Virus record (IMG/VR): IMGVR_UViG_3300020185_000305
Location: 1-20,909 of that record
Source of the DNA: a virus
Reading direction: 5' to 3' (one strand)
Length of the DNA stretch: 20,909 bases
The notes beneath the pieces are model-generated. The model was given only the letters and a program-made list of their open reading frames with translations. It searched no databases and was not told the origin of the DNA. Of the stretch, positions 5,581 to 13,220 are shown piece after piece (positions within the stretch are counted from its first letter, which is position 1; the number at the start of each line of letters is the position of its first letter). The position numbers and the translations under genes are program-made.

Positions 5581-6462
5581 ATGGAAAAAAAATATTCAAT
5601 CTTTCATATTGAAGGAGGATTAGGTAAAAACATAATGGCTACAGCGGTAGCTCAATGTATAAAAAATAATTACCCTAATAGAGAGTTAATAGTTGTAGGG
5701 TCTTATCCCGAAATTTTCTTAAACTTAAAATTTGTAGATAGGGTGTATCGCATAGGCAATACACCCTATTTTTACCAAAATTATATAGAAAATACAGATA
5801 ATCTTATTTTTAGAAGTGAGCCTTATTTTACTACTAGTTACATAAACCAAACATCCCATTTGATTAAAAGTTGGTGTGATCTATTCCAACTTGAATATAA
5901 TGGAGAAACCCCTCAATTAATATTCAATAGAGCACAAGAATCTGAAGCGGTGGGTGTGTGGTATAGAGATAAACCTATTATGGTTATACAAACTAATGGT
6001 GGTCCCCCTTCTCAAAATGTTGCTAATGCTTGGACTAGAGATATGCCTCCTTTAATAGCTGAAGGGATAGCTCAACATTATAGTCAAGATTATCACATTA
6101 TACAAGTAACCCGGGATAATACATTTATTATTCCTGGGGCTGAGGTTATTACCAACATAGAATCAAGCATGATGTTTTTATCTCTTTTAAAATTTTCTAA
6201 AAAAAGATTTCTTATAGATTCTAGTCTTCAACATGCCGCTCAAGCACTTAACTTAAAATCCACAGTTTTATGGATAGGTAATTCTCCTAGTGTTTTGGGG
6301 TATGATTTACATGATAATATATCACCTCAATTACCTTCAATAATGCTCCCTGATTCTTATATGGGTAAGTATGATATAGGTGGAAGAACGTATGAATGTC
6401 CTATACAAGATGAAAAACTCTTTAATATAGAAGAAATTATATCTTTAATAGATAACCAATAA
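5581..6462 (+). CDS. Glycosyltransferase family 9-like protein
   Basis: A 293-residue protein with the layout of a GT-B glycosyltransferase of the heptosyltransferase (GT9) type. The N-terminal Rossmann-like start has the Gly-rich loop GGLGKNIMATAVAQCI (residues 12-27). The C-terminal nucleotide-sugar side has RFLIDSSLQHAAQALNL (about 209-225), the counterpart of the family's D-S-G-x-x-H-x-A-x-A motif, followed by TVLWIGNSP. Here Ser215 replaces the usual Gly and Gln217 precedes the conserved His218. It would move a sugar from a nucleotide donor to a glycan acceptor in the cytoplasm. It lies directly after the tail-fibre genes and 4 bases before a sulfotransferase, so the pair could modify a host surface glycan or a virion protein. 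The acceptor is unknown. Confidence 0.75.
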   Translation: MEKKYSIFHIEGGLGKNIMATAVAQCIKNNYPNRELIVVGSYPEIFLNLKFVDRVYRIGNTPYFYQNYIENTDNLIFRSEPYFTTSYINQTSHLIKSWCDLFQLEYNGETPQLIFNRAQESEAVGVWYRDKPIMVIQTNGGPPSQNVANAWTRDMPPLIAEGIAQHYSQDYHIIQVTRDNTFIIPGAEVITNIESSMMFLSLLKFSKKRFLIDSSLQHAAQALNLKSTVLWIGNSPSVLGYDLHDNISPQLPSIMLPDSYMGKYDIGGRTYECPIQDEKLFNIEEIISLIDNQ

Positions 6463-6466
6463 AAAC

Positions 6467-7282
6467 ATGAAAAAGTTATATTTCCAATCCTCTCTCCCCA
6501 GAGCAGGATCAACCCTTTTACAAAATATTATGGGTCAAAACCCTGATTTTTATGTTACTCCTACCTCAGGGGTATTAGAATTACTATACGGTGCTAGACT
6601 AAATTACACTAATTCTCCCGAGTTTTCCGCTCAAGATGAAAAATTAATGAGAGAAGGGTTCTTAAATTTTTGTTTACAAGGAATCAATGGGTTTTTTGAT
6701 TCTATAACAGATAAACCCTGTATTTTAGATAAAAGTAGGGGATGGGGTTACCATTATGATTTTTTAAATACCTTTTATCCTAATCCTAAAATATTATGTA
6801 TGGTAAGAGACCCCCGTGATATTTTTTGCTCTATGGAGAAAAATTTTAGAAAATCTCCTGAAAAGGATTCAAATATGATTAACCATAAAACTGGAGAGGG
6901 GGTTACTACTGAGAAAAGAATAGACATCTGGTCTAACAATCCTCCAGTAGGGATGGCACTTGAACGCTTATATCAGATAATTAAAGAAGGAAATGATAAA
7001 CATATCCATTTTATTAAGTTTGAAACTCTTTGTAAGAGTCCTCAAAAAGAAATGGAAAAAATTTATAATTATTTAGAATTACCACATTTTGAACATGATT
7101 TTAATAGTATAGAACAGATTACTCAAGAAGATGATAAGGTTTATGGTATATTTGGAGATCATACTATTAAAAATAAATTAGAATATGTTCCTAGTAATGC
7201 TAAGGAAATTCTAGGAAAAGGAGCGTGTGATTGGATTAAGGGTAATTATAAATGGTTTTATGACTATTTCAAATATATTTAA
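6467..7282 (+). CDS. Sulfotransferase family protein
   Basis: A 271-residue protein with both PAPS-binding signatures of the sulfotransferase superfamily. The 5'-phosphosulfate loop is SSLPRAGSTLLQNI (Pro11, Gly14, Ser15, Thr16 near the N-terminus). The 3'-phosphate region is MVRDPRDIFCSMEKNF (Arg114 and Ser122 in the expected places). A DKSRGWG segment (about residues 88-94) fits the substrate-side region. Length and order match the bacterial and phage Sulfotransfer_3-type proteins. It would transfer sulfate from PAPS to a hydroxyl or amine of a glycan, lipid or protein. It is in one transcription unit with the glycosyltransferase and ends just before a strong terminator. Sulfation of a sugar added by its neighbour is a natural hypothesis; the substrate cannot be read from sequence. 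Confidence 0.88.
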   Translation: MKKLYFQSSLPRAGSTLLQNIMGQNPDFYVTPTSGVLELLYGARLNYTNSPEFSAQDEKLMREGFLNFCLQGINGFFDSITDKPCILDKSRGWGYHYDFLNTFYPNPKILCMVRDPRDIFCSMEKNFRKSPEKDSNMINHKTGEGVTTEKRIDIWSNNPPVGMALERLYQIIKEGNDKHIHFIKFETLCKSPQKEMEKIYNYLELPHFEHDFNSIEQITQEDDKVYGIFGDHTIKNKLEYVPSNAKEILGKGACDWIKGNYKWFYDYFKYI

Positions 7283-7284
7283 TT

Positions 7285-7307
7285 AAAGGGGCTTCGGCCC
7301 CTTTTTT
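7285..7307 (+). terminator. Rho-independent terminator after the sulfotransferase
   Basis: A perfect stem (AAAGGGGC with GCCCCTTT) closed by a TTCG tetraloop and running into six T residues, beginning 3 bases after the sulfotransferase stop codon. It is the clearest terminator in the window and separates the fibre and glycan-modification block from the DUF932 gene. Confidence 0.92.
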
Positions 7308-7330
7308 AGTCATATGAAAGTCATTCTTCC

Positions 7331-7374
7331 TTTGTAATAAAATTTGGCGGCGCCGGATAAATTTCGTATCTTCC
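7331..7374 (+). promoter_or_regulatory. Candidate host-type promoter for the DUF932 gene
   Basis: The 109 bases between the terminator and the DUF932 start are non-coding. TAAATTTC at 7358-7365 matches seven of eight positions of the Bacteroidetes -7 box TAnnTTTG. A TTTG at 7331-7334 lies 23 bases upstream as a possible -33 element. A second pairing (TTTG 7343-7346 with TATCTTCC 7367-7374) is weaker. CCGGA (7353-7357) and TCCGG (7372-7376) form a short inverted repeat around the box, which could be an operator or a 5' hairpin. The presence of a promoter is likely from the gene's isolation; the exact boxes are a guess. Confidence 0.4.
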
Positions 7375-7380
7375 GGGCAT

Positions 7381-7398
7381 CGAGAAAAACGAGAAAAA
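7381..7398 (+). repeat. Tandem 9-base repeat in the DUF932 leader
   Basis: CGAGAAAAA occurs twice back to back, then an A/T-rich stretch leads to the start codon at 7417. It may act as an unstructured, A-rich translation enhancer in the 5' leader; the role is inferred. Confidence 0.6.
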
Positions 7399-7416
7399 CA
7401 AATTAATTTTTTAAAC

Positions 7417-8250
7417 ATGGAAGATTTGATGACCACCTACGAAGAGAACATGGAGTTCTTAAGCCAAGAGCAAATTCGTAAAAATTGCCCTACGGCATTT
7501 ACCGAGAAGCCCAGCAAGGAGGTTTCAGCACATTACACCCACATCCCCACTTTCCGAGTGATTGAAGATATGGAAAAGCTTGGATGGGGTGTTGTTAGTG
7601 CTCAACAAGTTAATGCTCGTAAGTCTCACACTAAGGGTACTCAAAAGCACATGATCACTTTCCGCAACACAGATATTGTGGTTCAAGGTGATGATGGTGA
7701 TACGGTTTATCCCCAAATTATCCTTACGAATTCCCACGATGGTAAGAATTCGTTTACTTTCCAAGCAGGTATGTATCGCTTGGTTTGTTCCAATGGTTTG
7801 GTTATTGCAGACCAAGAGTTTGGTCGGATGAAGATTCGCCACATGGGTTATGATTTTGAAACCCTCCGTGAAACCATGACCGAAATGGTTGAGCAATTGC
7901 CCTTAACTGTTGAAAGTATGAATAAGTTTAAGCAAACTAACCTTAATAATGAGCAAAAATATGATCTTGCTCGTAAGGCGCTTGCGACTCGATTTAAAGT
8001 CCAAGAAGGACAAAAAATTGAGGATGTTTACAAGATTGATCTTGATGCGATCTTGGCCCCAGTCCGTAAAGAGGATTCGGGTGATGACCTTTGGAACGTG
8101 TTTAATGTCGTTCAAGAAAAGGTTATTGAAGGTGACTTTGAGTATGTGAGTGGTGTTAAGCTCCGTAAAGCTCGCCGAATCAAGAACTTCAAGCAAGACT
8201 TGAAAGTTAACCAGGAACTTTACGACGTTGCAAAAGAGTTTGCAGCGTAA
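7417..8250 (+). CDS. DUF932 phage/plasmid-like protein
   Basis: A 277-residue protein of the DUF932 family (TIGR03299-like), common in phages and plasmids and without an established biochemical role. Recognisable segments are FRVIEDMEKLGWGVVSAQQV (about residues 47-66), a KHMITFRNTD strand, PQIILTNSHDGKNSFTFQ and MYRLVCSNGLVIADQEFG. The family core is complete and length is normal. Start: ATG at 7417, though Met5 would also be possible. The gene is isolated: a terminator precedes it, it has its own leader, and a strong hairpin follows. It uses G/C-ending and high-expression-type codons (GGT, CGT, AAG, GAG) far more than neighbouring structural genes, suggesting strong expression at a different time or separate ancestry. 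I do not assign a function. Confidence 0.88.
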   Translation: MEDLMTTYEENMEFLSQEQIRKNCPTAFTEKPSKEVSAHYTHIPTFRVIEDMEKLGWGVVSAQQVNARKSHTKGTQKHMITFRNTDIVVQGDDGDTVYPQIILTNSHDGKNSFTFQAGMYRLVCSNGLVIADQEFGRMKIRHMGYDFETLRETMTEMVEQLPLTVESMNKFKQTNLNNEQKYDLARKALATRFKVQEGQKIEDVYKIDLDAILAPVRKEDSGDDLWNVFNVVQEKVIEGDFEYVSGVKLRKARRIKNFKQDLKVNQELYDVAKEFAA

Positions 8251-8269
8251 GCCATGTTGTTTGTGTGAA

Positions 8270-8290
8270 GGGGGAGGAGGTGCCTCCCCC
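8270..8290 (+). terminator. Strong GC hairpin after the DUF932 gene
   Basis: GGGGGAGG (8270-8277) pairs perfectly with CCTCCCCC (8283-8290) around a 5-base loop. The nearest T-run (8302-8306) is 11 bases downstream, so it is not a textbook intrinsic terminator. It could be a weak terminator or a stabilising 3' end of the DUF932 mRNA. Confidence 0.6.
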
Positions 8291-8320
8291 GGATCACAAA
8301 ATTTTTAAAAATCCTCCACA

Positions 8321-11622: not shown

Positions 11623-11961
11623 ATGGGACAATTAGAAAAAAATGTATTTGGTAATAAAAAATTTTCTGACCTTCTTGAGGAGATATACAATAATCAGAAG
11701 AAGAAAGAAGAACAGATTTCTACTCTTATTGCAGAACTAAAACCCCTCATTCAGGATATTGGGGATGCTACTTTAGTAGTACCCTTACTTAAAGAGTACC
11801 TTGAAATATCAGTTAAAAATGATGAACAGCTTATTAAAATGGCTAACATTGTCCAAAAAGCAGTTCAAAATGAGGGGGATGATGATAGTTTTGGTATGAC
11901 TGATGCTGAAAAGGAACAGTTATTGGGAGAAATAAAAAAATTTGGTAAAGATAAAAAGTAA
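11623..11961 (+). CDS. Hypothetical protein between late sigma factor and spike
   Basis: A 112-residue helical protein, start MGQLEKNVFGNKKFSDLLEE. The middle contains hydrophobic helices (IQDIGDATLVVPLLKEYLEI) and the C-terminus is acidic then basic (NEGDDDSFGM to KKFGKDKK). I recognise no domain. Location directly after the late sigma gene and the length raise the idea of a late coactivator such as T4 gp33 (112 residues), but no gp33 sequence feature is visible and this stays a guess. The TAA overlaps the ATG of the spike gene by one base, so a baseplate-assembly role is equally possible. Confidence 0.75.
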   Translation: MGQLEKNVFGNKKFSDLLEEIYNNQKKKEEQISTLIAELKPLIQDIGDATLVVPLLKEYLEISVKNDEQLIKMANIVQKAVQNEGDDDSFGMTDAEKEQLLGEIKKFGKDKK

Positions 11962-13220
11962 TGCCTATATTTGGTCCTGCCGGTCTAAATCCTACTCCTA
12001 ATTTTAGTGGAAATACTTCTAATAAAACGGAAGTTATAAGTGTTAGAGTAAGAGATATAGTATTAAGTCCCAATCACCCTAAATTTGAAGAAGTTGGAGG
12101 TTGGAGTGGATTGGGGACCATTTTTTTCTCATCTGTTTCCACTCCTGGTTTGAAGAGTATAGGTTCTTCACAAGGAAGTGCTAGGCCTTATTTCTCTAAT
12201 TCTAAATTTTATCCCCTTAGAAATGAGATTGTTACCATCATTAAGGCAACTGATTATATTGCTAGTCAAAATAGTAAAAATAGAGAAGCTCAAATATTTT
12301 ATTATTTCCCTCCCGTATGTGGATGGGGTGGAGTTAACCATAACGCTCTTCCTGACCCTATTCAGGGAGGTAATGTAACAACTAGCCCTAGAAAGAATTA
12401 CACTCAGGTTGAAGAGGGTGCAACTAATAAAGAACATGTAACAACTTCTAAAATATACTTAGGTGAAACATTTAAAGAAAATCCTAAGGTAAAAGCTTTA
12501 TACCCTTATGAGGGTGACTATATTTTAGAGGGTAGATGGGGTAATAGTATAAGATTTGGAAGTACTGTAAAATCTTTAGAAGTACCTAATAATTGGTCTA
12601 GTGAAGGGGATGAGGGTGACCCCATTATTATTTTAAAAAATGGTAATTTACCATTTCCTTCCACAGATCCCTCTTATATCCCTACCGTTGAAGATATTAG
12701 TAATGATCTTTCATCTATATACCTTACAAGTACTCAAAAAGTTCAATTTTTCCCATCTAGTTTTAAAACTGATTCTTTTGGGGAAAATGATACCCCCCCA
12801 ACCTCACCTTCCGAGTATCAAGGGAATCAAATCCTCCTCACATCAGGACGCTTGGTATTAAATGCTCAATCAGATGGTGTTTTAATTAGCTCTCCTAGTG
12901 TTATACACTTGAGTGCGGGTAATGCCATACATTTAGATAGCAGTGATAAAATAGTCCTCTCTTCAGGAGAGGTGTATTTAATTGGGAGAGATGCTGAGGA
13001 AAGGGCGGTGTTAGGAGATCAATTAATCCTTAATCTAAAGTTGCTTTTGGAGGTATTAGAAGGAGTAGGAATGGCTTTAACTAGTGCCAATGTAGATGGA
13101 GTTGCAGCTGTATCTTTAAATAATATAGGTCCCAATTTAACAGAAGTTGTAAAAGATTTTAAATTAGCTATTGAAGGAGATAACCCCAAAATTTTATCTA
13201 AAAACGTAAGGCTTAAATAA
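11961..13220 (+). CDS. 5: Baseplate central spike protein, gp5-like
   Basis: A 419-residue protein with the layout of a tail spike. After MPIFGPAGLNPTPNFSGN comes a beta-rich block (ISVRVRDIVLSPNHPKFEEV to GLGTIFF, about residues 26-56) compatible with the OB-like domain of gp5/VgrG proteins. A variable region with SNSKFYPLRNEIVTIIKATD follows. Near residues 290-350 there is a repetitive strand pattern (GRLVLNAQSDGVLISS, VIHLSAGNAIHLDSSDKIVL), typical of an intertwined spike beta-helix. A helical C-terminus ends the protein. It lacks an evident lysozyme domain and is shorter than T4 gp5 (575). It would form the membrane-piercing tip of the contractile tail. One-base TAATG overlaps bind it to both neighbours. 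Assignment is by pattern and context. Confidence 0.75.
   Translation: MPIFGPAGLNPTPNFSGNTSNKTEVISVRVRDIVLSPNHPKFEEVGGWSGLGTIFFSSVSTPGLKSIGSSQGSARPYFSNSKFYPLRNEIVTIIKATDYIASQNSKNREAQIFYYFPPVCGWGGVNHNALPDPIQGGNVTTSPRKNYTQVEEGATNKEHVTTSKIYLGETFKENPKVKALYPYEGDYILEGRWGNSIRFGSTVKSLEVPNNWSSEGDEGDPIIILKNGNLPFPSTDPSYIPTVEDISNDLSSIYLTSTQKVQFFPSSFKTDSFGENDTPPTSPSEYQGNQILLTSGRLVLNAQSDGVLISSPSVIHLSAGNAIHLDSSDKIVLSSGEVYLIGRDAEERAVLGDQLILNLKLLLEVLEGVGMALTSANVDGVAAVSLNNIGPNLTEVVKDFKLAIEGDNPKILSKNVRLK

Follow-up and report, generated by a model that had tools for sequence, protein, structure and literature searches.

On the F plasmid, two genes that Couturier and colleagues named ygeA and ygeB lie behind Frpo1, a promoter working on single-stranded DNA (PMC9849209). 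There, the leading genes behind Frpo1 are described as being made before the plasmid is double-stranded, and as critical for conjugation and of unknown function. YgeA is early and transient; transfer was 25% without Frpo1 and 3.9% without ygeA, as compared to 93%, and ygeB alone could not be deleted (PMC9849209). Gene order suggests ygeB to be a gene of the DUF932 family: on F, the end of the family member (64438-65259) is separated from traM by 1220 nt and a single reverse gene, and psiB, ssb and a gene for antirestriction are found in the same leading region. The pMccB17 paper places yubO (11944-12231) and yubP (12350-13171) between hok and traM, with a 149-bp repeat preceding yubO. From their place and size, the repeat would correspond to Frpo and yubP to the DUF932 gene.

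The family is widespread on plasmids. A tblastn search returned at least 5000 plasmid records with a DUF932 gene, 4398 of the 5000 listed being predicted conjugative. Four of the seven plasmids that we looked at carry the gene 1.2-1.4 kb from traM (1378 nt in Cedecea, 1302 nt in Klebsiella and 1221 nt in pHB37-2, besides F), and in P. lurida a mobA gene lies within 1 kb. No transfer genes were seen near DUF932 in the stretches viewed of the Nitrosococcus and Komagataeibacter plasmids, and in the E. coli CP4-6 prophage the genes nearby are yafX, one of RadC-like type and a toxin-antitoxin pair. Given these differing surroundings, the family is not tied to transfer origins.

The window analyzed here is the whole of a virus record of 20,909 bases, probably a fragment, that is classed as linear; it carries the T4-like baseplate genes gp25 and gp6. 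Its DUF932 gene (7417-8250, plus strand) encodes a 277-residue protein matching PF06067 at 113 bits, against a curated Pfam cut-off of 23, with residues 36-265 covering profile positions 5-223 of 227, and thus belongs to the family. Against TIGR03299, the ‘phage/plasmid-like protein’ family, it scored 38.3 bits, below the NCBIfam cut-off of 110.7, and it is a distant relative of that family rather than a member. The F plasmid protein, from the same Pfam family, shares 29% identity with it over 262 residues (E 9e-37). On F, DUF932 lies where the DNA enters first, and the upstream promoter is reported to work at entry (PMC9849209). The two differ in that F drives a pair of genes from a single-strand promoter, whereas the phage would use a double-strand promoter of Bacteroidota type for one gene followed by a 3′ hairpin.

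Among phages, the closest described counterpart is immuto35A_111 of the Flavobacterium phage vB_FspM_immuto_3-5A, a DUF932 gene with 45% identity over 94% of the query. It is preceded by a promoter of the same look and followed by a phosphohydrolase gene, several further genes and gp25-like and gp6-like genes, ordered as in the window. Unlike the window gene, it sits among small genes forming a 17-kb block that is absent from the window, is without the codon set described below, and is followed by a gene starting at the DUF932 stop codon. In the jumbo phages GAP32 and CBB, DUF932 lies among small genes in the first 20-21 kb, in CBB inside the terminal repeat.

In the window, the gene separates genes of the glycosylation type from the baseplate genes of this T4-like phage. 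The gap before it, 134 nt, is the longest of the window (the next longest being 79, 50 and 40 nt), as the original prediction had it; the terminator, tandem repeat, 3′ hairpin and distinct codons listed there are likewise present in the sequence. Directly upstream, at 5581-7282, lie an ORF of 881 bases that matches nothing in Pfam and a gene for a sulfotransferase (PF13469), a stretch that differs in sequence between relatives and hence looks like a variable site. An RNaseH-like protein (PF04308; 8498-8947), found in 32 of the 68 loci searched, is encoded directly downstream. The host is probably a member of the Bacteroidota, judging from the type of promoter, the cultured Flavobacterium-phage relative and the two closest genome-bin relatives, which are filed as Maribacter and Flavobacteriales.

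We consider it reasonably probable that the DUF932 unit is an early cassette that functions autonomously and encodes an establishment protein. Its upstream edge is formed by a direct repeat, GTCAT-N6-GTCAT (7309-7324), a candidate activator site. A predicted Bacteroidota-type promoter follows at 7343-7374, with TTTGG at −33 (7343), a 20-nt spacer (N20, counted between TTTG and TA) and TATCTTC at −7 (7367), inside TTCGTATCTTC. The housekeeping consensus of the phylum is reported as TTTG at −33 and TAnnTTTG at −7 (PMC7366714, PMC2483708), the −33 motif not having been found in Flavobacterium johnsoniae according to PMC7366714. Compared to this consensus, the window promoter has a complete −33 element and, at −7, TATCTTCC, that is, TAnnTT without the last TG; relatives show TATATTTA or TATATTCA at this position. 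The anticipated host-type promoter is thus recognizable at the sequence level. A sigma-70 promoter scan was of no use, returning 77 hits where 78.4 were expected.

The 5′ leader (7375-7416) contains the announced tandem repeat: CGAGAAAAA at 7381-7398 is real, and at just one other place in the window does a 9-mer return within 12 nt. As a conserved regulator the repeat was rejected, for it occurs only in the window and, in altered form, in the nearest relatives. The leader RNA (7363-7422) had no unusual fold (z +0.80), and the only Rfam match, a weak one to the Brucella sRNA BSR0709 (27 bits where the cut-off is 382), was rejected.

The putative promoter belongs to a repeated phage promoter family. 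In the 109.8-kb relative G001, 10 of the 11 exact copies of GTCAT-N6-GTCAT precede a TTCGTATATT-like element. Allowing up to two mismatches to a 15-base core, G001 has 12 sites between 25.9 and 53.0 kb; all are on the minus strand, where nearly every ORF of at least 150 aa is encoded. The immuto genome yielded 22 matches to a strict pattern—written after its sites had been seen—of which 20 fall within the small-gene block at 60.3-77.1 kb (one on the minus strand), two before it and none after; the promoter of its DUF932 gene is one of the 20. When the core was searched less strictly, 53 sites were found in this 160-kb genome, compared to 6.1 per 50 kb of random sequence of like dinucleotide make-up.

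A different element, TATTTA, occurs in the window at 2984, 3751, 8330, 8968, 11623, 15121 and 19298. It lies within 25 nt before the start of 7 of the 13 genes with a gap of at least 10 nt (1.0 expected from shuffles) and of none of the 16 genes without one, and may represent the phage's late promoter, which would give mRNAs with almost no leader. The DUF932 gene is without it.

The original prediction also described the gene as insulated by a strong terminator upstream and a GC hairpin downstream. An intrinsic terminator is indeed predicted at 7285-7307 (plus strand), with a stem, a TTCG loop, a T-run and a folding energy of −13.5 kcal/mol that only 1 of 200 shuffles equaled. A pattern scanner missed it, probably because the T-run was counted into the stem. 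The stem-loop is present in L006 and L008, which have similar upstream sequence and share the sulfotransferase gene, and absent from L002, L004 and L009, where the upstream sequence is different. By fold and comparison, the terminator belongs to the sulfotransferase neighbor and lies outside the cassette proper.

The 3′ element (8251-8300) consists of a GCCATGTTGTT strand and a hairpin with an inner stem (8270-8277/8283-8290) and an outer stem (8260-8265/8295-8300). The hairpin is as strong as foreseen (−24.4 kcal/mol, z −3.55; 1 of 200 shuffles equally good). It does not have the make-up of an intrinsic terminator, GGATCACAAAATTTTT rather than a T-run following the stem at 8260-8300, and a T-run is likewise absent in near relatives; L060 and L067 have a canonical terminator in its place. 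The idea of insulation thus has to be qualified: the upstream terminator goes with the neighbor, and the downstream hairpin, while conserved, lacks canonical terminator form in this clade.

G001, G003 and the window each contain the combination of strand and hairpin once; CCATGTTGTT likewise occurs once in each, always after DUF932, and a strict search found the CATGTTGTT strand in 34 of 116 relatives. Among 22 relatives aligned for this element, chosen from those showing it, CATGTTG is invariant. In the same chosen set, four pairs of the inner GC stem changed on both sides (7 cells compared to 1.6 in shuffles), and pairing was kept at 90% (86.6% in shuffles); further pair types were not above shuffles (9 vs 8.1; 161/500). 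The outer stem was rejected as a conserved feature, as L021, L027, L029, L034 and L036 keep its left strand but are missing pairs there. The element may act on RNA ends or stability.

Promoter and 3′ fold recur with the gene across relatives, which are not mutually independent in the following counts. The core promoter (one mismatch or none, in the 200 nt upstream) was found in 85 of 116 relatives, leaving 31 without it at this threshold, and in 25 of 339 control stretches. With each 3′ flank counted once, it accompanied 74 of 106 DUF932 genes and 91 of 692 other ORFs (120 nt); the 70 nt that follow the stop codon reached a folding energy of at least −15 kcal/mol in strength for 74 of 106 and 103 of 692, respectively, with medians of −20.5 and −7.5 kcal/mol. 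These 692 controls are rough, containing spurious ORFs and some true early genes.

The unit, spanning about 7309-8300, has also passed between phages as a single cassette. When the window is compared with L002 and L006, the leader is 93% identical, the gene 94-95% and the 3′ element 96%, as against 73-74% just beyond; for L008, the values are 93%, 88%, 88% and 81%. Between the window and G001, dS is 0.26 for DUF932 and 1.37, 1.21 and 1.52 for the RNaseH-like, HD and gp6 genes; relative to G003, it is 0.61 for DUF932, 0.68 for RNaseH-like and 1.20 for HD. Codon constraint may account for part of the low DUF932 values, yet it leaves unexplained that G001, the more distant phage (53% gp6 identity to the window, against 86% over 462 aligned residues for G003), is closer in DUF932. 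By tree path, the nearest relative of the window is L002 for DUF932 (0.059), L008 for the RNaseH-like gene (0.16) and L005 for the HD gene (0.18); the DUF932 grouping is poorly supported and mosaicism is general.

Phage morons are genes with a promoter and 3′ signal of their own that are exchanged as a unit, and the cassette resembles them in all three respects. It could accordingly be an ordinary moron—an imported gene, steadily expressed from its own promoter, with no special early role and with odd codons inherited from a donor—and its exchange between phages fits this, as does a second promoter of the same look in G003 (L082 17372, minus strand), which precedes an unrelated 462-aa ORF in the structural region. 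We regard this explanation as unlikely: distant relatives retain both the promoter and the 3′ fold, the promoter comes from a repeated phage set, and DUF932 keeps a similar gene order in several relatives. RNaseH-like and HD genes are found at the same locus in 25 of the 60 loci with a complete DUF932 gene, which argues against a sporadic insert. The codon set, moreover, is common to other genes behind the same promoter in G001.

The gene is compositionally distinct, as had been noted: its GC3 of 0.42-0.43 exceeds that of the 27 other window genes (0.14-0.35), and it uses CGN 14 times and AGR never for arginine, and AAG 16 times and AAA 8 times for lysine. The accompanying claim that its codons resemble those of highly expressed genes fails when the phage capsid gene serves as the yardstick. 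The gp23 gene of the near relative G003 has CGN 1, AGR 9 and a GC3 of 0.31, and we rejected a capsid-like codon use. The match is instead to six G001 genes, picked by rule as the first behind promoters, whose median GC3 is 0.48 as compared to 0.24 in 135 others (p 0.0005). These use CGN for 20 of 26 arginines (407 of 1054 in the others), AAG for 33 of 57 lysines (450 of 2046) and TTA for only 6 of 71 leucines (1060 of 2381). In immuto, DUF932 has CGN 0 and AGR 15, and the small-gene block does not differ from the rest (p 0.28); since the set is absent there, it marks promoter-near genes of the window clade, not the DUF932 family. The highest GC3 (0.58) among 102 G001 ORFs of at least 100 aa belongs to a DnaB/Sak4-like ATPase gene (L086 5163-5900, minus strand) behind an early-type promoter.

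As for what the protein does, a PDB sequence search returned nothing below E 0.6, and no enzyme family was matched. Two AlphaFold models (pLDDT 79.7 and 87.2) had no PDB match at E ≤ 0.001; their best VIA scores (Z 7.6 and 7.0), obtained in each case with a chain of the Mediator complex, lie within the stated noise. In a viral structure library, the first model had 37 matches at E ≤ 0.001, whose informative names were DUF932, TIGR03299 or DUF945 proteins.

A DNA-metabolism protein that converts or repairs incoming DNA by single-strand binding, annealing or replication start is possible, and we hold this view at low confidence. Eight of 20 scanned DUF932 neighbors matched DNA replication, recombination or methylation families at E ≤ 0.01 (three Gp157 and one each of AAA_24, a clamp-loader-like AAA, N6_Mtase, RadC and a DnaN-like protein, three of them below the curated cut-off), and one further neighbor is a ParB_N protein. 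The 20 were, however, hand-picked, with 18 from 77 downstream ORFs, one from 65 upstream ORFs and the others from the Nitrosococcus plasmid; PolyA_pol, DUF3987 and DUF6573 were matched once each and the rest had no match. The G001 ATPase, being the first gene behind one promoter, fits the same view. RAD52 chains top the Foldseek list of the better model, albeit as weak matches (E ≥ 0.055, TM about 0.1), and are not among the VIA rows listed. Kinship to Rad52/Sak is unsupported by sequence: hhalign probability was 0.2% for an alignment of 31 Sak-type sequences and 0.1% for both a single Sak and lambda Bet, no better than the 0.4% of an unrelated window protein used as a control. On the Nitrosococcus plasmid (L102 3131-5503), genes for DUF932, an AAA_24 ATPase and Gp157 are consecutive, resembling a phage recombination module. 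ParB_N look-alikes of roughly 680 aa lie downstream of DUF932 in many Proteobacteria. In Stenotrophomonas D457 (L226 119-3402, 4902-7899), DUF932 and a ParB_N gene adjoin HerA-like and SIR2-like genes, a pair known from defense systems.

Another tentative proposal is that the protein is an anti-defense (or anti-SOS) factor that blocks a host defense component in the first minutes, an arms race spreading the cassette. Plasmid leading regions are reportedly rich in anti-defense genes (PMC11541004, PMC12826799), and the company of DUF932 on F and in CP4-6 is of a kind that would suit this role. Conversely, 50 columns are invariant in 39 DUF932 sequences. Proteins engaged in arms races are often variable. 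PADLOC, which lists defense rather than anti-defense families, gave no match up to E 1, and the suggested involvement in takeover or defense evasion found no activity to back it. Neither this nor another function was found in the searched portions of the literature naming DUF932; these cover the main text of PMC11541004, where ‘DUF’ is absent, and DUF932 may be included in its table of uncharacterised leading-region families. Our confidence in these two proposals is not exclusive of that in an establishment protein, since both are sharper, overlapping versions of it.

Neighbor families and the place on plasmids favor an establishment protein for incoming DNA. In the mechanism that we propose, host RNA polymerase with the Bacteroidota housekeeping sigma factor would transcribe DUF932 soon after DNA entry, without dependence on transcription of the structural genes; the mRNA end would be set or protected by the 3′ hairpin, and the codon set common to genes right behind such promoters would favor translation. 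The protein itself would work on or for the incoming DNA in the cytoplasm, in an establishment role comparable to that of its F plasmid relative. Early timing, in a sense that here takes in middle timing, is suggested by promoter and position. Of the separate and early or strong expression put forward initially, a separate and probably early one stands, based on the promoter family, the conservation of the unit and where the family sits in jumbo phages and plasmids; it may also be strong. The promoter family, unit conservation, cassette exchange and frequency of DUF932 on conjugative plasmids go beyond the original prediction.

More speculatively, and with the odds in our view against it, DUF932 may be a shared ‘entry’ protein of mobile DNA, which plasmids and phages separately put under a first-firing promoter—Frpo1 on F, a strong Bacteroidota promoter in the phage—because it has one conserved job on newly arrived DNA, with the conserved 3′ RNA element tuning or ending expression in the phage clade. 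If the phage and plasmid proteins do the same job, the phage cassette and F would offer two handles on the first needs of newly arrived DNA. The promoter family, in turn, would allow early-type genes of Bacteroidota phages to be called by sequence analysis.
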